Source of the DNA: Micromonospora purpureochromogenes | GTDB lineage: Bacteria > Actinomycetota > Actinomycetes > Mycobacteriales > Micromonosporaceae | Assembly (NCBI RefSeq): GCF_900091515.1 | Contig: NZ_LT607410.1 | Span: 4,154,001 to 4,218,000 of the forward strand | Direction of reading: 5' to 3' | DNA: 64,000 bases | Shown here: positions 57,109-64,000 of the stretch, one piece after another | Numbering within the stretch: the first letter of the stretch is position 1 | Layout: each line of letters begins with the position of its first letter | Translations under genes and position numbers: made by a program | The notes under the pieces: model-generated | The model's input: only the letters and a program-made list of their open reading frames with translations | The model's database searches: none | What the model was told of the DNA's origin: nothing

Positions 57109-57960
57109 GTGCGATGGACGGTGCTGGACGCGGCGCTGGACTCCTCCGGCCGGAGCCGGGGTGAGGAGCGCGGCCCGGGCGCGCTGCGGGCCGCCGGCCT
57201 GCTGGCCGCGCTGGACGCCGACGACGGCGGAACGGTCGACGCCCGGATCCACGACGCCACGCGGGACCCGGCGACCGGGCTGATCGGGGCGGAGCAGGTC
57301 CGCCGGGCCAGTCGGGCGATCGCCGCACAGGTGGCGGCGGTCCGCGCCGCCGGGCGGCATCCGCTGGTCGTGGGCGGGGACTGCACCATCCTGCTCGGTG
57401 TCTTCCTCGCCCTGCCGCGCGGCAGCGGGCTGTGGTTCCTGGACGGTCACCCGGACTTCCAGGACGGGATCGGCTCGGCCACCGGGGAGGGCGCGGACAT
57501 GGAGCTGTCCATCCTCACCGGCCACGGCCCGGACCTCTTCGACACCGCGGCGCCGCTGGTGGCGGCGGAGCTGGTCCGGCTGGTCGGCCACCGCCCGCCG
57601 GGCGACGAGGAGGCCCGCCGCGAGGCCGACCGGGTGGACCCGCGGATCCCCCAGCTGCCGGCGGCGGAGCTGCGGCGACGAGGCGCCGGGGCGGTCGGCC
57701 GCGAGCTGGCCGCCGAGGGCGCCGGGCCGGCCTGGCTGCACCTGGACGTCGACGTGCTCGACCCGCGGGTGCTGCCGGCCGTGACGTACCCCGAGCCCGA
57801 CGGGCTGGACTGGGCCGACCTGCTGGCGCTGATCACGCCGCTGGTGCGCTCCGGACGCCTGCTCGGGATGAGCGTCGCGGACCTCGACGCCGACGGGGAC
57901 CCCGACGGGCGGCACGCGCGCCGCCTCGTCGAGGTCCTCGCCGCCGCCCTCAGCCCCTGA
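57109..57960 (+). CDS. Arginase/agmatinase-family protein
   Basis: A 283-residue ureohydrolase-fold protein. DGHPDF and HLDVDVLDP carry the Asp/His metal ligands. The first ligand motif, usually GGDH, is GGDC, so one manganese ligand is Cys rather than His. Substrate unknown. GTG 57109 follows a leaderless -10 box. The 3' end overlaps the convergent GT2 gene by 11 bp. Confidence 0.8.
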   Translation: MRWTVLDAALDSSGRSRGEERGPGALRAAGLLAALDADDGGTVDARIHDATRDPATGLIGAEQVRRASRAIAAQVAAVRAAGRHPLVVGGDCTILLGVFLALPRGSGLWFLDGHPDFQDGIGSATGEGADMELSILTGHGPDLFDTAAPLVAAELVRLVGHRPPGDEEARREADRVDPRIPQLPAAELRRRGAGAVGRELAAEGAGPAWLHLDVDVLDPRVLPAVTYPEPDGLDWADLLALITPLVRSGRLLGMSVADLDADGDPDGRHARRLVEVLAAALSP

Positions 57961-59188
57961 TACCGGGCGCGGGCCGGCGGTGGTGCATGGCCAGGCGCAG
58001 CAGCAGGAAACGCAGGGCGGTCGCTGCCAGGTTGGCCGCCACCAGCACCGCCAGCTCGACCGGCCGCGAGGGCGCGGTGGCCGCGTGCAGGGCCGCGAGG
58101 GATCCGCTGGTCAGCGCCAGGCCGAGGCCGAAGGCGAGCAGCCCCTGCAGATGGTGCCGGCCGGCGTGCCGACGCCCGGTGATGCCGAAGGTGAGCCGCC
58201 GGTTCGCGGCGGTGTTGGCCACCGCCGTCACCAGCAGCGCCAGCAGGTTGGCCCACTGCGCGCCCAGCACCCCCCGGCACGCCACGAAGAGCAGCAGGTA
58301 CGCCAGCGTGCTGGCCACCCCGACGGCGGCGAACCGGGCCAGCTGCCGCGGCAGCCCGACCGGCACCTGGGCCGGCGGGGCGGTCAGCGGCGCCCGGCCG
58401 AACTGCTCGCGCAGCCGCCCGACCGGAAGCGCCCCGGTCAGCAGCGCCCGGCCCAGCCGGCCGATGCCGCGTAGGTCGGCGAGGGCGGTGGCGACGATGT
58501 CCACCCGGCTGTCCGGGTCGTCCACCCAGTCCACCGGCACCTCGTGGACGCGCAGCCCGGCCCGCTGGGCGAGCACCAGCAGCTCGGTGTCGAAGAACCA
58601 GCCGGTGTCCTGCACCAGCGGCAGCAGCTCCCGGGCCACGTCGGCGCGGATCGCCTTGAAGCCGCACTGCGCGTCGGAGAACCGCGCCGCGAGCGCCCCT
58701 CGCAGCAGCAGGTTGTACGCCCGGGAGATCACCTCCCGCTTGGCGCCGCGCACCACCCGGGAGGTGCGCGCCAGCCGGGTGCCGATGGCCAGGTCGGAGT
58801 GGCCGGAGATGAGCGGCGCGACCAGCGGCAGCAGCGCCGCCAGGTCGGTGGAGAGGTCCACGTCCAGGTAGGCCAGCACCGGGGCGTCCGAGGCCGACCA
58901 GGTGGCCCGCAGCGCCCGGCCGCGGCCCTTGGCGGCCAGGTACCGCACCCGCACCTCGGGCAGCTCCGCGGCCAGCGCCTCGGCGACGGCCAGGGTCGCG
59001 TCGACGCTGGCGTTGTCCGCCACGGTGATCCGGAACGGGTACGGGAAGTGCGCCCTCAGGTGCGCGTGCAGCCGCCGTACGCACGGACCCAGGTCGGCCT
59101 CCTCGTTGTGGACCGGGACCACCACGTCCAGCACCGCGGCCCGGGTCTCGACGGCCGGCCGGGAGCCGGCGGCGTACGTCATCCTCAT
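57950..59188 (-). CDS. GT2 polyprenyl-phosphate glycosyltransferase fused to a GtrA domain
   Basis: A 412-residue fusion. Residues about 15-260 form a GT2 domain like dolichyl-phosphate glucose/mannose synthases (VVPVHNEEADLG, ADNASVDAT, metal-binding YLDVDLS). Residues about 285-400 are a GtrA-like domain of four membrane helices (FAAVGVASTLAYLLLF, ANTAANRRLTF). It would make and possibly flip a lipid-linked sugar. Its start overlaps the GT39 stop by 4 bp. Confidence 0.88.
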   Translation of the reverse strand: MRMTYAAGSRPAVETRAAVLDVVVPVHNEEADLGPCVRRLHAHLRAHFPYPFRITVADNASVDATLAVAEALAAELPEVRVRYLAAKGRGRALRATWSASDAPVLAYLDVDLSTDLAALLPLVAPLISGHSDLAIGTRLARTSRVVRGAKREVISRAYNLLLRGALAARFSDAQCGFKAIRADVARELLPLVQDTGWFFDTELLVLAQRAGLRVHEVPVDWVDDPDSRVDIVATALADLRGIGRLGRALLTGALPVGRLREQFGRAPLTAPPAQVPVGLPRQLARFAAVGVASTLAYLLLFVACRGVLGAQWANLLALLVTAVANTAANRRLTFGITGRRHAGRHHLQGLLAFGLGLALTSGSLAALHAATAPSRPVELAVLVAANLAATALRFLLLRLAMHHRRPAPGIRG

Positions 59189-61434
59189 CCCTCCTGCCCG
59201 CTGCTGAGGTCGTGGACGGTGACCCCGTCGACGGTCTGCGATTCGAAGGTCTCGGCGACCCAGGCGGCGATCTCCTGCGCGGCGGAGCTGCCCCCGTTGG
59301 CCCGGAAGCCGCCGCCGCCGACGAACCAGTGGATCCGCCCGTCGGCCACGTACGCCTGGAACTGCGCCAGCGTCGGGGACGGGTCGCTGCCGTTGAAACC
59401 GCCGATCGCCATCACCGGCCGCCCGGTGGCGAGTTGGTAGCCGGAGGCGTTGTTCGAGCCGATGGTGGCCGCCACCCAGGTGTAGTCCTCGGCGTCGCGC
59501 TCCAGCAGCGCCTTCAGCTCGGCGCTCGGCGCGCGGGAGTCGAGCAGCCCGCCCATCGCGCCACCGCCCTGCGCCCGGCCGTCACCGCCGGCGGCCTGGC
59601 CCGGCAGCCCGCCGGGGACGCCGGTGGGCAGGCCGGTGCCGCCGGGCAGGCCCGGGAACTGGCCCGTGCCGCCGTTCTGGCCGATCTGGTTGCCGCCCGG
59701 GGCGCCGGGGAGCTGGCCGCCCGGCAACTGGCCGTTCGGCCCGCCTGGGAAGCCGGGGAACTGTGCGCCGGCCGGCATCCGGGCACCGGGGAAGCCGCCC
59801 CGTCCCGGGCCGAAGCCGCCCTGCACCGCCGGGCCGGCGCTCGGGATCGAGCCGGTGTGCGGGGTAGCCGCGGTCTGCAGGGCGTACCCGGCCGGCCCGG
59901 CGAGCGCGGTGGCCGCGCCGAGCACGAGCACCACCGGCACGACCCGCCGGGGCAGCCGGCCCGCCAGCACCACCAGCACCGCCGCGGCGAGCCCGCCGAC
60001 CAGCACCACCGTGCGCAGCCAGGGGTACCAGTCCGGGCTGCGGCCGAGCAGCCGCCAGGACCAGCAGGCGGTGACGGCGAGGGCCGCCGCCAGCGTCACG
60101 GTGGCGAGCAGGCCGCGTCGGCCCGCCCGCGTCCCGGGCGTCGCCGCGCCGGGAACCGGCTCCGTCGGTACGCCCGGCTCGTGCGCCCCGACCGGTCCGG
60201 GCGTGGCGTCGCGCTCCCGCCAGAGCAGCACGGCGCCGGCGCCGACCACGGCGCCGACCGCCGGGGCGAGGGCGACGGTGTAGTACGCGTGGAAGATGCC
60301 GGACATGAAGCTGAAGATCAGCCCGGTGACCAGCAGCCAGCCGCCCCAGAGCAGCAGGCCGGCGCGGCGCCGGTCGGTGCGCGGCGCCCGGCCGGCCAGC
60401 GCCAGGCCGGCGACCAGCAGGATCAGCGCGGCCGGGAGCAGCCAGGAGATCTGGCCGCCGACCTCGGTGTCGAACATCCGCAGCCAGCCGGTCTGACCGG
60501 AGAACGGGCCACCGCCGCCGGCCCGGCCACCGCCGACGCTGCCCTCCTCGTTGCCGGTGATCCGGCCCAGGCCGTTGTAGCCGAGGGTCAGCTCCAGGAT
60601 GCTGTTGCCCTGCGAGCCGCCGATGTAGGGGCGGGCGCTGGTCGGCACCAGCTCGACGACGGCCACCCACGAGCCGGCGGCGACGACCAGGCCGAGCCCG
60701 GCCAGCAGCAGCTGGCGGATCCGCCGCCCCAGGCCGGTCGGCGCGGCCAGCAGGTAGACCCCGGCGAAGACCGGGACCACCAGGAACGCCTGGAGCATCT
60801 TGGTGAGGAAGCCCAGGCCGACCAGCGCGCCGGCCAGAACGATCCACCGGGTGCCGGCCGTCTCGACCGCCCGCACCGTCGCGTACCCGGCGAGGACCAG
60901 CAGCAGCACGAGCAGGGCGTCGGGATTGTTGAACCGGAACATCAGGGTGGCGACCGGGGTGAGCGCGAGGACCGCGCCGGCGAGCAGGCCGGCCACCGGG
61001 CCGTACCAGCGGCGGACGGTGGCGTACAGCGCGCCGACCGTGGCGACGCCGAGCAGCGCCTGCGGCACCAGGATGGACCAGCTGCTCAGGCCGAAGATGC
61101 GCACCGACAGCGCCATCAACCACAGCGACGCCGGGGTCTTGTCCACCGTGATCGAGTTGGCCGCGTCAGAGGAGCCGTAGAAGAACGCCTTCCAGCTCTC
61201 CGCGCCGGCCTGCGCCGCCGCCGAGTAGAACGAGTTCGCCCAGCCGGAGGCGCCGAGGCCCCACAGGTAGAGCACGCCGGTGGCGAGCAGCAGCACCGCC
61301 AGGGCCGGTCGCGTCCAGCCCGGATCCGGCCGCGGCGGCCGGGGCTCCGCCGCCACGGGTACGGGTTCCGGCGCGGGTGGTGCCGGCGGTGCGGTCACCG
61401 CCGGCGCGGTCAGCAGGCTCTCGGTCTTGTCCAT
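59185..61434 (-). CDS. GT39/ArnT-like membrane glycosyltransferase
   Basis: A 749-residue multi-pass membrane protein of the PMT/ArnT type, with about 12-13 helices, DKTPASLWLMALSVRIFGL and RFNNPDALLVLLLVLA. It would transfer a sugar from a polyprenyl-phosphate donor to an envelope acceptor. A ~90-residue Gly/Pro/Gln-rich segment (GGFGPGRGGFPG-type) lies before the C-terminal extracytoplasmic domain. GCACAG-type repeats lie 45 bp upstream. It probably acts with the GT2-GtrA protein. Confidence 0.88.
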   Translation of the reverse strand: MDKTESLLTAPAVTAPPAPPAPEPVPVAAEPRPPRPDPGWTRPALAVLLLATGVLYLWGLGASGWANSFYSAAAQAGAESWKAFFYGSSDAANSITVDKTPASLWLMALSVRIFGLSSWSILVPQALLGVATVGALYATVRRWYGPVAGLLAGAVLALTPVATLMFRFNNPDALLVLLLVLAGYATVRAVETAGTRWIVLAGALVGLGFLTKMLQAFLVVPVFAGVYLLAAPTGLGRRIRQLLLAGLGLVVAAGSWVAVVELVPTSARPYIGGSQGNSILELTLGYNGLGRITGNEEGSVGGGRAGGGGPFSGQTGWLRMFDTEVGGQISWLLPAALILLVAGLALAGRAPRTDRRRAGLLLWGGWLLVTGLIFSFMSGIFHAYYTVALAPAVGAVVGAGAVLLWRERDATPGPVGAHEPGVPTEPVPGAATPGTRAGRRGLLATVTLAAALAVTACWSWRLLGRSPDWYPWLRTVVLVGGLAAAVLVVLAGRLPRRVVPVVLVLGAATALAGPAGYALQTAATPHTGSIPSAGPAVQGGFGPGRGGFPGARMPAGAQFPGFPGGPNGQLPGGQLPGAPGGNQIGQNGGTGQFPGLPGGTGLPTGVPGGLPGQAAGGDGRAQGGGAMGGLLDSRAPSAELKALLERDAEDYTWVAATIGSNNASGYQLATGRPVMAIGGFNGSDPSPTLAQFQAYVADGRIHWFVGGGGFRANGGSSAAQEIAAWVAETFESQTVDGVTVHDLSSGQEG

Positions 61435-61479
61435 GCCGGCAAGCCTGGCGAGGCCGGTTGGACCGGCACCGTGACCGGG

Positions 61480-61496
61480 CTATGCGTCGGCTGTGC
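61480..61496 (-). promoter_or_regulatory. Tandem GCACAG/GCATAG site upstream of the GT39 gene
   Basis: Read on the minus strand: GCACAG (complement of 61491-61496) and GCATAG (complement of 61480-61485), 11 bp apart start to start. Proximal edge is 45 bp from the GT39 ATG. It overlaps the histidine kinase stop codon. Matches sites at 63740-63769 and 63830-63846. Confidence 0.5.
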
Positions 61497-62982
61497 AAGC
61501 CGGCAGCAGCACCCGGAAGACGGTGTGACCCGGCCGGCTCTCGACCTCGACGGACCCGTGGTGCGCCTCCACCACCGCCGCCACGATCGCCAGGCCGAGG
61601 CCGGTGCTGCCGTGCTCCCGGGACCGGGAGCTGTCGCCGCGGGCGAACCGTTCGAAGACCTCGCCCTGCAACTCGGGTGGGATGCCCGGCCCGTCGTCGG
61701 CGACGCTGATCTGCACGCCGCCGGGGGTGCGGGTCAGCCGGGTGGTCACCGTGGTGCCCGGCGGGGTGTGCACCCGGGCGTTGGCCAGCAGGTTCGCCAC
61801 CACCTGGTGCAGCCGGACGGCGTCGCCCGGCACGTCGAGCACCTCGTCGGGCAGGTCGAGCTGCCAGCGGTGCTCAGGTCCGGCGACGTGCGCGTCGCTG
61901 ACCGCGTCGACGATCAGCGCGGTCAGGTCGACCGGCTCCGCCGCCAGCGGCCGGCCGGAGTCCAGCCGGGCCAGCAGCAGCAGGTCGTCGACGAGGCTGG
62001 TCATCCGGGTGCTGGCCGACTCCACCCGGCGCAGCGCGTGCGCCACGTCCGGCGGCACCCGGTCCCGCCCGCGCCGGGCCACCTCGGCGTAGCCGCGGAT
62101 CGCGGCCAGCGGCGTCCGCAGCTCGTGGCTGGCGTCGGCGACGAACTGGCGTACCCGGGTCTCGCTGGCCTGCCGCGCGGCGAGCGCGGCCGCGACGTGC
62201 CCCAGCATCCGGTTCAGCGCCGCCCCCACCTGCCCGACCTCGGTCCGCGGGTCGGTGTCGCCCTCGGGCACCCGCACCGACAGGGCCACCTCGCCGCGGT
62301 CCAGCGGCAGCTCGGTGACCCGGGCGGCGGTGGCGGCGACCCGGTTCAGCGGGCGCAGCGTGGCCCGCACGATCAGCGCGCCCAGGGCGCCGGCGACCAG
62401 CAGGCCGGCGGCGGCGACGCCCCCCTGGGCGGCGATCATCCACCAGACGGTCTCCTGCACGCCGGCCAGTGGAAGGGCGAAGACCAGCACGTCACCGTCG
62501 GGCGCCTGCCGGGCCACCGCCCGGTAGTCGCCCCGCCCGCCCAGGTCGACGCTGCGCGGCCGCCCGTCGGTCGGGATCCGGGTCAGCGCCGACACGTCGG
62601 CGGCCGGCAGGGCCTCCGTCGGCCCGGAGCTGCTGCGGATCCGCGCGGACGCGACACCACCGTCGACGACCTTCACCGCGATCGAGTCGGGTGGGAAGCC
62701 GGGCGGCGGCTCGGGCGCCCGCTGGTCGTCCGCCCGCTGCCGCTCGGCGAACTGGCGGAACCAGGGCGGGAGCTCCTGCTGCCGGCGGTCGTCGGCGGTG
62801 AGCTGGTTGTCGACCTGGACGATCAGGAAGTGCCGCAGCGCCACCGTGGTCAGGCCGCCGATGGCGATGCTGACCAGGGCGAGCAGCGCCACCACCGCGG
62901 CGACCAGGCGGGTCCGCAGGGACCGCCCGGCCAGCCAGGAGCGCAGTCGGCCGCCGGGGTCACTCCGCGGGCTTGAGGACAT
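61480..62982 (-). CDS. Sensor histidine kinase
   Basis: A 500-residue membrane kinase. TM1 (about 20-45), a periplasmic region (about 45-180), TM2 (about 185-205), HAMP, then HisKA with phospho-His in FVADASHELRTPLAAI (about residue 284), and an HATPase domain with DDGPGIPPE. It overlaps the response-regulator stop by 23 bp. The signal is unknown. Confidence 0.95.
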   Translation of the reverse strand: MSSSPRSDPGGRLRSWLAGRSLRTRLVAAVVALLALVSIAIGGLTTVALRHFLIVQVDNQLTADDRRQQELPPWFRQFAERQRADDQRAPEPPPGFPPDSIAVKVVDGGVASARIRSSSGPTEALPAADVSALTRIPTDGRPRSVDLGGRGDYRAVARQAPDGDVLVFALPLAGVQETVWWMIAAQGGVAAAGLLVAGALGALIVRATLRPLNRVAATAARVTELPLDRGEVALSVRVPEGDTDPRTEVGQVGAALNRMLGHVAAALAARQASETRVRQFVADASHELRTPLAAIRGYAEVARRGRDRVPPDVAHALRRVESASTRMTSLVDDLLLLARLDSGRPLAAEPVDLTALIVDAVSDAHVAGPEHRWQLDLPDEVLDVPGDAVRLHQVVANLLANARVHTPPGTTVTTRLTRTPGGVQISVADDGPGIPPELQGEVFERFARGDSSRSREHGSTGLGLAIVAAVVEAHHGSVEVESRPGHTVFRVLLPACTADA

Positions 62983-63706
62983 ACCCCGCGCCGCGCAGCG
63001 TGTGGATCATCGGCGCCCGACCGGCGTCGATCTTCTTCCGCAGGTACGAGATGTACAGCTCCACGACGTTGGCCTGCCCGCCGAAGTCGTAGTTCCAGAC
63101 CCGGTCCAGGATCTGCGCCTTGCTCAGCACCCGCCGCGGGTTGCGCATCAGGTAGCGCAGCAGCTCGAACTCGGTGGCGGTGAGGGTGATCAGCTCGCCG
63201 CCCCGGCGCACCTCGTGGCTGTCCTCGTCGAGGCTGAGGTCGCCGACGGTGAGCACGGCGTCCTCGCGGGCGGCCACGGCGAAGCCGGAGCGGCGCAGCA
63301 GCGCGCGCAGCCGGGCGATGACCTCCTCCAGGCTGAACGGCTTGGTGACGTAGTCGTCGCCGCCGACGGTCAGCCCGGCGATCCGCTCCTCCACCGCGTC
63401 GCGGGCGGTCAGGAAGAGCACCGGCACGGTCGGGGTCTGCTCGCGCAGCCGGCGCAGCACCTGGAAGCCGTCCAGGTCGGGCAGCATCACGTCGAGGACC
63501 ACGGCGTCCGGCTGGAACTGCCGCGCCGTGCTGAGCGCGGCCATCCCGTTGCCGGCGCTGCGCACCTGCCAGCCCTCGTAGCGCAGGGCCATCGACAACA
63601 GGTCGGTCAGGGTCGGCTCGTCGTCGACCACCAGGACCCGGACCGGCTCGCCGTCGGGTCGACGGAGTTCGATCCGCTGCTGCGCTGCCTGCCCGTCCAT
63701 CACCAT
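62960..63706 (-). CDS. OmpR-family response regulator
   Basis: A 248-residue regulator. Receiver domain: VDDE, phospho-acceptor Asp72 in VLDVMLPDLDG, Thr100 and Lys122 in DYVTKPF. C-terminal OmpR winged helix: LTATEFELLRYLMRNPRRVLS-type, VVELYISYLRKKID and IHTLRGAGYVL. ATG 63706 is chosen (63700 also possible); the frame open to 63982 is not conserved. It is the first gene of the kinase/glycosyltransferase set. Confidence 0.95.
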   Translation of the reverse strand: MVMDGQAAQQRIELRRPDGEPVRVLVVDDEPTLTDLLSMALRYEGWQVRSAGNGMAALSTARQFQPDAVVLDVMLPDLDGFQVLRRLREQTPTVPVLFLTARDAVEERIAGLTVGGDDYVTKPFSLEEVIARLRALLRRSGFAVAAREDAVLTVGDLSLDEDSHEVRRGGELITLTATEFELLRYLMRNPRRVLSKAQILDRVWNYDFGGQANVVELYISYLRKKIDAGRAPMIHTLRGAGYVLKPAE

Positions 63707-63739
63707 GCCCCCATCGTGGGCGCCGCGCCTGGCGCTGCC

Positions 63740-63769
63740 CTGTGCGCATCCTGTGCGCGGGCTGTGCGC
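63740..63769 (-). promoter_or_regulatory. Triple GCGCACAG direct repeat upstream of the response regulator
   Basis: CTGTGCGC occurs at 63740-63747, 63751-63758 and 63762-63769, at exact 11-bp steps. In the direction of the regulator gene it reads GCGCACAG three times. The proximal edge is 33 bp before the ATG. This matches OmpR-family operator architecture and suggests autoregulation. Confidence 0.65.
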
Positions 63770-63829
63770 GGGTCGGCTCGACCGTACCGGGCCGGGCGAC
63801 GCCGGGCGAAACGCAGCGCCGGTCGGCCC

Positions 63830-63846
63830 GCACAGCCCGGGCACAG
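63830..63846 (+). promoter_or_regulatory. Tandem GCACAG site upstream of the divergent gene
   Basis: GCACAG at 63830-63835 and 63841-63846, 11 bp apart, 44 bp before ATG 63891. Same motif, spacing and orientation relative to the gene as the two sites above. Confidence 0.55.
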
Positions 63847-63890
63847 GCCCGACCCACGTCGGGTCCAGGCTCCGGCCGCAGGCTCGGGCC

Positions 63891-64000
63891 ATGGCTGTCG
63901 AGGAGGTCCGCTGGGCGTACCGGGGGCGGACGGCGCGGGTCGCCGTGACCGACCGGGCCGCGCTGCCCCAGGCGCGGCGCACGCTGGTCCGGTCGCTGGC
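63891..64000 (+). CDS. ApbE-like protein, N-terminal part (runs off the right edge)
   Basis: Only 36 codons are present: MAVEEVRWAYRGRTARVAV then TDRAALPQARRTLVRSLA. This resembles the start of FAD:protein FMN transferases (ApbE), where a helix of the VTDPAALxAAR kind is common. The match is weak because of the short length. It is divergent from the response regulator and has its own GCACAG pair, so it is probably in the same regulon. Confidence 0.4.
   Translation, partial: MAVEEVRWAYRGRTARVAVTDRAALPQARRTLVRSL

Follow-up and report, generated by a model that had tools for sequence, protein, structure and literature searches.

The 64,000-nucleotide stretch analysed here (the window: Micromonospora purpureochromogenes, assembly GCF_900091515.1, contig NZ_LT607410.1, positions 4,154,001 to 4,218,000 of the forward strand) carries near its right end a two-component system composed of an OmpR-family response regulator (RR) and a sensor histidine kinase (HK). 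Tandem copies of a GCACAG-type hexamer, separated by 5 bp, precede the RR gene, the GT39-type glycosyltransferase gene behind the kinase and a divergent ApbE-like gene. We investigated these repeats, called boxes below, as candidate operators of the adjacent regulator. The features of the locus, in window coordinates, are as follows.

57950 to 59188, minus strand: GT2-GtrA fusion of 412 amino acids, with a polyprenyl-phosphate glycosyltransferase-like and a flippase-like domain (Pfam Glycos_transf_2 and GtrA_DPMS_TM)
59185 to 61434, minus strand: GT39/YkcB-like membrane glycosyltransferase of 749 amino acids (Pfam PMT_2 and YkcB_C)
61442 to 61447, minus strand: GT39 −10-like hexamer CAGGCT, 32 bp after the pair and 7 bp before the ATG
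61469 to 61474, minus strand: degenerate third GT39 half-site TCACGG, in 11-bp register (tCAcGG in the consensus of 35 aligned genus GT39 promoters)
61480 to 61496, minus strand: predicted GT39 operator pair GCACAGCCGACGCATAG, overlapping the HK stop codon
61480 to 62982, minus strand: sensor HK of 500 amino acids (Pfam HAMP, HisKA and HATPase_c)
62960 to 63706, minus strand: PhoP-like OmpR-family RR of 248 amino acids (Pfam Response_reg and Trans_reg_C; recognition helix NVVELYISYLRKK)
63713 to 63718, minus strand: RR −10-like hexamer CACGAT, 32 bp after the core pair and 6 bp before the ATG
63740 to 63745, minus strand: third RR half-site GCACAG, in 11-bp register, whose 22-bp spacing recurs in relatives
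63751 to 63767, minus strand: predicted RR core operator pair GCACAGCCCGCGCACAG, from a motif scan
63830 to 63846, plus strand: predicted ApbE operator pair GCACAGCCCGGGCACAG, from a motif scan
63879 to 63884, plus strand: ApbE −10-like hexamer CAGGCT, 32 bp after the pair and 6 bp before the ATG
63891 to 64000, plus strand: start of the divergent ApbE-like gene of 274 amino acids, which runs past the window (L025 6891-7715; Pfam ApbE)

Read towards its own gene, the repeat is GCACAG-N5-GCACAG-N5-GCACAG at the RR, GCACAG-N5-GCATAG at GT39 (one mismatch to GCACAG-N5-GCACAG) and GCACAG-N5-GCACAG at the ApbE-like gene. The RR promoter holds three copies of GCGCACAG, with minus-strand half-sites at 63762-63767, 63751-63756 and 63740-63745. 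The gaps between operator and start codon are 33 bp at the RR, 45 bp at GT39 and 44 bp at the divergent gene. The copies of the repeat, their 11-bp spacing, their orientation and the 33-45 bp gaps all agreed, when checked against the sequence, with an original prediction made from the DNA letters. The core operator unit is a single 17-bp pair, to which additional half-sites are joined in 11-bp register. The regulator itself belongs to the OmpR/PhoB family, with a receiver and a winged-helix Trans_reg_C domain that both exceed their Pfam cut-offs.

The comparison with relatives covered 195 loci: the window's own, the 80 best of 581 confirmed named loci, and 114 others drawn from the genus and family of the window. 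The RR was present in 94 of 101 genus genomes (loci were taken from the window genome and from 82 of the remaining 93) and in 36 of 61 family genomes, of which three belong to the window's genus and 32 supplied loci from other genera, with G059 left out. The set includes some repeats (L033 and L134 are apparently the same genome). The 250 bp upstream of the RR contain an exact CACAG pair at 11-bp spacing in 82 of the 83 loci from the window's genus and in 27 of the 32 from other family genera. All 8 named Micromonosporaceae have it too, as do 25 of 72 other actinobacteria, and no group has a match to the reversed control. With a relaxed half-site (C[AT][CT]AG), the pair was found upstream of the RR in 185 of 195 loci, compared to 0 of 1161 same-strand coding chunks of RR and HK, and the prominent distances between relaxed half-sites across the 195 loci are 11, 22 and 33 bp. 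The Streptomyces pair frequently reads TCTCAG-N5-TCACAG. The motif is therefore neither as common in RR and HK coding sequence as upstream of the regulator nor absent from orthologous promoters, the two outcomes that the original prediction had held against itself.

Counted over whole loci and on both strands, there are 371 tandem sites, compared to 14 for the reversed pattern. They comprise 205 sites before the RR, 64 before GT39, 30 before GT2 and 13 before ApbE (312 together), with 59 elsewhere. The sequence comparison itself shows where the sites lie, that they keep register and are conserved, and which genes they accompany.

Outside the genus, the box also stands before other genes, mostly in 11-bp phase (L119, L120, L129, L069, L082, L085, L146, L034, L077, L090 and L101). 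By eye, several of these genes encode exported or membrane proteins, including a Rieske-like lipoprotein, an HtrA-like protease, a phosphodiester-glycosidase-like protein, a DUF4956-like protein and Gly/Gln-rich membrane proteins. With start codons called mechanically, 24 further sites outside the genus have a called open reading frame, 15 of them within 70 bp of the start and 9 farther away. For the 15 distances of 70 bp or less, 14 equal 11k or 11k+1, which would be compatible with helical phasing.

The distance from the pair to the gene is shared as well. When only pair-bearing loci are counted (82 of 83 for the RR), a hexamer of the form NANNNT lies exactly 32 bp after the pair in all 131 genus promoters with a pair (RR 82/82, GT39 40/40 and ApbE 9/9). 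The same offset is occupied in 30 of 30 RR promoters and 8 of 8 glycosyltransferase promoters from other family genera, and in 45 of 65 RR and 25 of 31 glycosyltransferase promoters from other actinobacteria, where other offsets have a mean of 0.3 to 1.7 hits. The RR, GT39 and ApbE promoters have one common layout, probably leaderless and of the activator type. If the hexamer is a −10 element, transcripts would begin approximately at the start codon, which would put the pair at about −61 to −45, an activator position. OmpR/PhoB-type regulators usually activate from just upstream of the −35 position.

The RR could instead repress these promoters, or its own promoter only, by binding there. The extra half-sites of the RR promoter extend towards its −10-like element (window 63740-63745), so that full occupancy could block polymerase, and many relatives have an RR-promoter half-site that ends 22-23 bp before the ATG. 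However, the only arrangement that all three promoters (RR, GT39 and ApbE) have in common is a pair whose end lies 32 bp ahead of the hexamer, just upstream of where a −35 element would be. We regard repression as unlikely.

The sites before GT39 and ApbE come and go largely with the genes that they face. Among genus loci with GT39 directly after the kinase, the box is found at the kinase end in 40 of 40; among those without a GT39 match but with the kinase kept, the GT39-type site is absent in 30 of 36. Here, a locus without GT39 is one with no tblastn match within the fetched stretch, and the count excludes three contig-end loci, one without an HK stop codon and three with a partly matched GT39, in which the site is present. 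All loci with a divergent ApbE gene (9 in the genus and 4 in other genera) carry a box that faces it, compared to a box pointing away from the RR in 1 of 74 genus loci without ApbE. That one exception, L151, retains a C-terminal ApbE remnant and has therefore probably lost the gene recently. Beyond the genus, a box precedes the glycosyltransferase gene behind the kinase, whether GT2 or GT39, in 8 of 9 loci from other family genera and, among other actinobacteria, in 31 of 35. The pattern used for the counts by presence of GT39 or ApbE begins with CACAG, and three GT39 loci from other genera are thus scored there as siteless, though two of them (L130 and L146) show a pair in the wider glycosyltransferase count.

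We examined the same association on a tree built from RR and HK DNA, with the kinase end left out. The joint test of GT39 and its site covers 76 loci. Of 17 independent pairs discordant for GT39, 11-13 show the site changing along with the gene and none shows the opposite (median P-value 0.00024). For ApbE, the site changes with the gene in 6-7 of 7 pairs and against it in 0 (median P-value 0.016). GT39 presence switches 20 times along the genus tree, where gain and loss cannot be told apart, and remnants of GT39 or GT2 stand directly after the kinase in L170 and L177. The original prediction had assigned to the regulator its own gene, the GT39 and GT2-GtrA genes and the ApbE-like gene. Conserved sites, tree pairs and the fixed hexamer distance all speak for this regulon; its ApbE part is narrower than proposed and applies only to some lineages.

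The GT39 box deserves separate consideration, as its copy encodes the kinase's final residues and contains the HK stop codon, TAG, and might be mere coding sequence for the kinase C-terminus, the other copies being chance GC-rich repeats. The TAG of the box is the kinase stop codon in 39 of 40 genus loci. In L153, CCACAG replaces GCATAG and the kinase stops at a TGA within the spacer; L116 has an earlier kinase end, with the GT39 box in intergenic DNA; in L176, L184 and L189, a longer kinase ends at the box. Despite these differences at the kinase end, the distance from the box to GT39 remains a constant 44-45 bp in all five loci. Since this distance is kept where the kinase end shifts, the predicted GT39 operator is, by this comparison, not a by-product of kinase coding. 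The absence of the site from most kinase-bearing loci that have no GT39 points the same way. At the RR promoter, the conserved pair lies outside the RR gene, which refutes the chance or coding explanation there. Although genome-wide motif counts equal their controls, as that explanation would have it, we give it almost no credence.

These counts were as follows. With up to two mismatches, the window contains 9 motif copies where 12.3 are expected; with up to one mismatch, the genome contains 24, compared to 23 for the reversed control; and exact CACAG-N6-CACAG occurs 9 times genome-wide, compared to 10 for its reversed control. None of the three indicates over-representation. Where the copies lie is a different matter. 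Exact GCACAG-N5-GCACAG occurs 4 times in the 6.67 Mb genome, and 3 of these fall inside 107 bp at the RR/ApbE intergenic region; for the 184-bp intergenic span to hold two separate sites, a rough Poisson calculation gives 4e-8. CACAG-N6-CATAG has a single genome occurrence, the GT39 operator (reversed control 4). The clustering and the conservation of the motif are not due to chance.

Six exact CACAG pairs elsewhere in the genome (G000) were inspected; they match the background rate, and one belongs to another conserved element. That element, CACAGTGCCCCCACAG, is the same in every letter in all 7 genus genomes examined (G000 copy at C1:3863608, L230) and sits just before a small minus-strand open reading frame starting MCQHQPTCPS, as another conserved promoter element. 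We take the encoded protein to be DUF5999-like. In six complete relatives, the recurrent sites outside the locus are CACAGTGCCCCCACAG and matches that resemble DnaA boxes; the remaining outside sites were judged by their letters alone. Two stray exact CACAG pairs (L228 and L229, at G000 C1:3205627 and 3563894) lie, by eye, beside SARP/BTAD-like regulator genes.

The type of motif would be explained by the regulator being PhoP-like. Its best match in the Protein Data Bank (PDB), and closest solved relative by sequence, is Mycobacterium tuberculosis PhoP (283 bits). According to extracts of PMC4832192, M. tuberculosis PhoP occupies TCACAGC-N4-TCACAGC as a tandem dimer, its subunits head to tail and the spacing strict, and forms trimers and tetramers on longer arrays; its base-contacting residues are N212, V213, E215, S216, Y217 and Y220, with N212 hydrogen-bonding the second C of TCACAGC. 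The RR keeps five of these six residues (N212, V213, E215, Y217 and Y220) and has Leu in place of S216. Its helix NVVELYISYLRKK is found in 147 of 195 loci, and Asn212 in 187 of 195. Like PhoP as described in those extracts, the RR is an OmpR/PhoB-family protein associated with direct repeats that have a CACAG core, an 11-bp period, strict spacing and arrays of more than two half-sites. Unlike the T-first site of PhoP given there, the RR boxes begin mainly with G or A (G in 51% of first half-sites and A in 51% of second half-sites at RR promoters). The RR also differs from PhoP in its Leu at 216 and in its predicted targets, which are local glycosylation genes.

Variation at residue 212 offers a possible direct link between the RR and the box. 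CATAG makes up 11 of 18 paired half-sites in Ser212 loci, compared to 14 of 380 in Asn212 loci; the base that differs is the one to which N212 of PhoP hydrogen-bonds. The comparison was made post hoc, after helix variants had been seen, on 7 Ser and 1 His loci, and the Ser212 loci are essentially one clade, with five Microbacteriaceae or close kin (L087, L095, L097, L102 and L103). The covariation, suggestive as it is, would tie the regulator to the sequence that it is proposed to read.

The genome encodes a second PhoP-like regulator (L275, G000 C1:1706716-1707393), which is nearer to M. tuberculosis PhoP. L275 scores 330 bits against PhoP, compared to 283 bits for the RR, and consequently the RR is, by these scores, a paralogue and not an orthologue of PhoP. 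An alternative is that L275 (C1:1706716) is the main binder of the boxes, or that the two regulators share them, with the adjacent RR as just one target. Besides its closer kinship, L275 has the Ser of PhoP at helix position 216 (helix NIVESYISYLRRK). However, the 3.7 kb surrounding L275 contain no relaxed box pair, the box precedes the RR relatives' own gene in 185 of 195 loci, as expected of autoregulation, and it precedes the glycosyltransferase gene that follows the RR's kinase in most of the loci examined, as autoregulation would also give. We consider binding mainly by L275 or by both regulators quite improbable.

The evidence best supports a mechanism whereby the boxes are operators of the adjacent PhoP-like RR, which would autoregulate and would activate a YkcB/YkcC-type envelope glycosylation module and, in some lineages, ApbE; we assign this reading a probability of roughly 0.85. 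The kinase would phosphorylate the RR, which would bind NCACAG-N5-NCACAG as a head-to-tail dimer, with extra subunits where there are extra half-sites. The bound pair would end 32 bp ahead of the −10-like hexamer and 44-45 bp ahead of the start codon. From this position the RR would activate transcription, with a probable start site on or beside the start codon. Its targets would be its own gene and the kinase, the GT39 and GT2-GtrA module and, in some lineages, the divergent ApbE-like gene. The GT39 and GT2-GtrA proteins would together make, flip and transfer a lipid-linked sugar outside the membrane. Binding by the RR, activation over repression, leaderless transcripts and the glycosylation chemistry are what we infer from the DNA.

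Several points weigh against this reading. Even the relaxed pair is missing in 10 of 195 loci, and NANNNT at +32 is missing in 20 of 65 distant RR promoters; in distant glycosyltransferase promoters, an offset of 54 is likewise frequent (20/31). The GT39-type site is retained in 6 of 36 genus loci without GT39, and a box points away from the RR in 5 of 27 loci from other genera without ApbE. A single deletion could take a gene together with its promoter, and the joint-loss evidence is therefore weaker than it appears, being support and not proof. One Ser212 genome (L033, L134) retains CACAG, and L275, with its similar helix, might bind the same box. The genome-wide scan that the original prediction had proposed gave counts that merely match the controls. 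The strict motif is not enriched genome-wide, and consequently the box by itself does not predict targets outside this locus.

On a broader scale, the comparisons fit a phylum-wide PhoP-like system with a small local regulon and a rigid promoter layout (pair, 32 bp, NANNNT, 6-7 bp, start codon), a picture that we think somewhat better than an even chance. Both the system itself and the glycosylation module would have stayed under this control from Micromonospora to Streptomyces, and lineages would add or drop exported or redox genes (ApbE, protease-like, Rieske-like) by means of a box in 11-bp phase. In Micromonospora, one operator would double as the kinase stop codon; in Microbacteriaceae, a change at residue 212 would accompany a shift from CACAG to CATAG.

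The combination of GT2, GtrA and GT-C/YkcB domains that defines such a module is found, by Pfam, in two window open reading frames. In the extracts of PMC7961091, PMC5836110 and PMC10128005, both YclJ and YrkP control ykcBC in Bacillus subtilis, YclJ additionally controls yngABC, and a transmembrane glycosylation system is proposed to consist of YkcC, the GtrA-type YngA and YkcB. As described there, the likeness to the window lies in a two-component system, YclJ or YrkP, placed over a pair of GT2 (YkcC-type) and GT-C (YkcB-type) genes, with the GtrA-type YngA under YclJ. The B. subtilis system as described is that of a Firmicute, whereas the window fuses GT2 with GtrA and has the genes directly behind the kinase. 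Extracts of PMC10128005 describe a further parallel in Clostridioides difficile, HexRK and HexSDF, in which a two-component system controls a neighbouring envelope glycolipid operon. The HexSDF enzymes differ, according to the same extracts, and are an MGDG synthase-like protein, a deacetylase and an MprF-like flippase. Streptomyces CutRS, associated with extracytoplasmic secretion stress in extracts of PMC12802291 and PMC10433416, is likewise a conserved actinobacterial two-component system. As an identity for the present system, CutRS is ruled out by its motif, since those extracts give TAWATAAA for CutR, with htrA-type targets.

In the open-licence literature (subscription papers were not covered), we found no description of this two-component system among the papers listed, and no paper on a PhoP-polymerase structure among the 8 of 26 listed for that subject. 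The mechanism is of a known kind, and the regulon assignment and promoter layout appear to be new, the conservation of the layout being unusually good. A widespread actinobacterial two-component system thereby gains an operator, a regulon and a promoter layout that can be tested, and a tie to an extracellular glycosylation module. The arrangement of box, 32 bp, −10-like hexamer and start codon allows further targets to be predicted in Micromonospora and Streptomyces. In addition, a PhoP paralogue with one changed contact residue, and relatives with another, make a small natural case for how binding sites are retained or shifted within a family.

The remaining observations concern the kinase and the ApbE-like protein. 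A structure model of the HK has a mean pLDDT of 86 and a pTM of 0.50, with an outer segment of mixed alpha/beta fold; in a fold comparison, the best 50 of 631 PDB matches fell nearly all on the kinase core and gave no clue to the signal. The divergent protein, whose ATG is at 63891, matches PF02424 with 63.7 bits (cut-off 25.6). The genome has a second ApbE-like gene at C1:3.00 Mb, which adjoins an FMN-binding/ferric-reductase-like gene. We considered this operon as a co-target of the divergent ApbE and rejected it: it has its own ApbE-like gene and no box in the 3.2 kb covered. By eye, the divergent protein's GLVKG, NAGGD and HxxDP-like stretches, which we take to be ApbE catalytic and FAD-binding motifs, look degenerate beside the genome's other ApbE-like protein, and it seems to lack the lysine and the NAGGD-type stretches that the other protein keeps.

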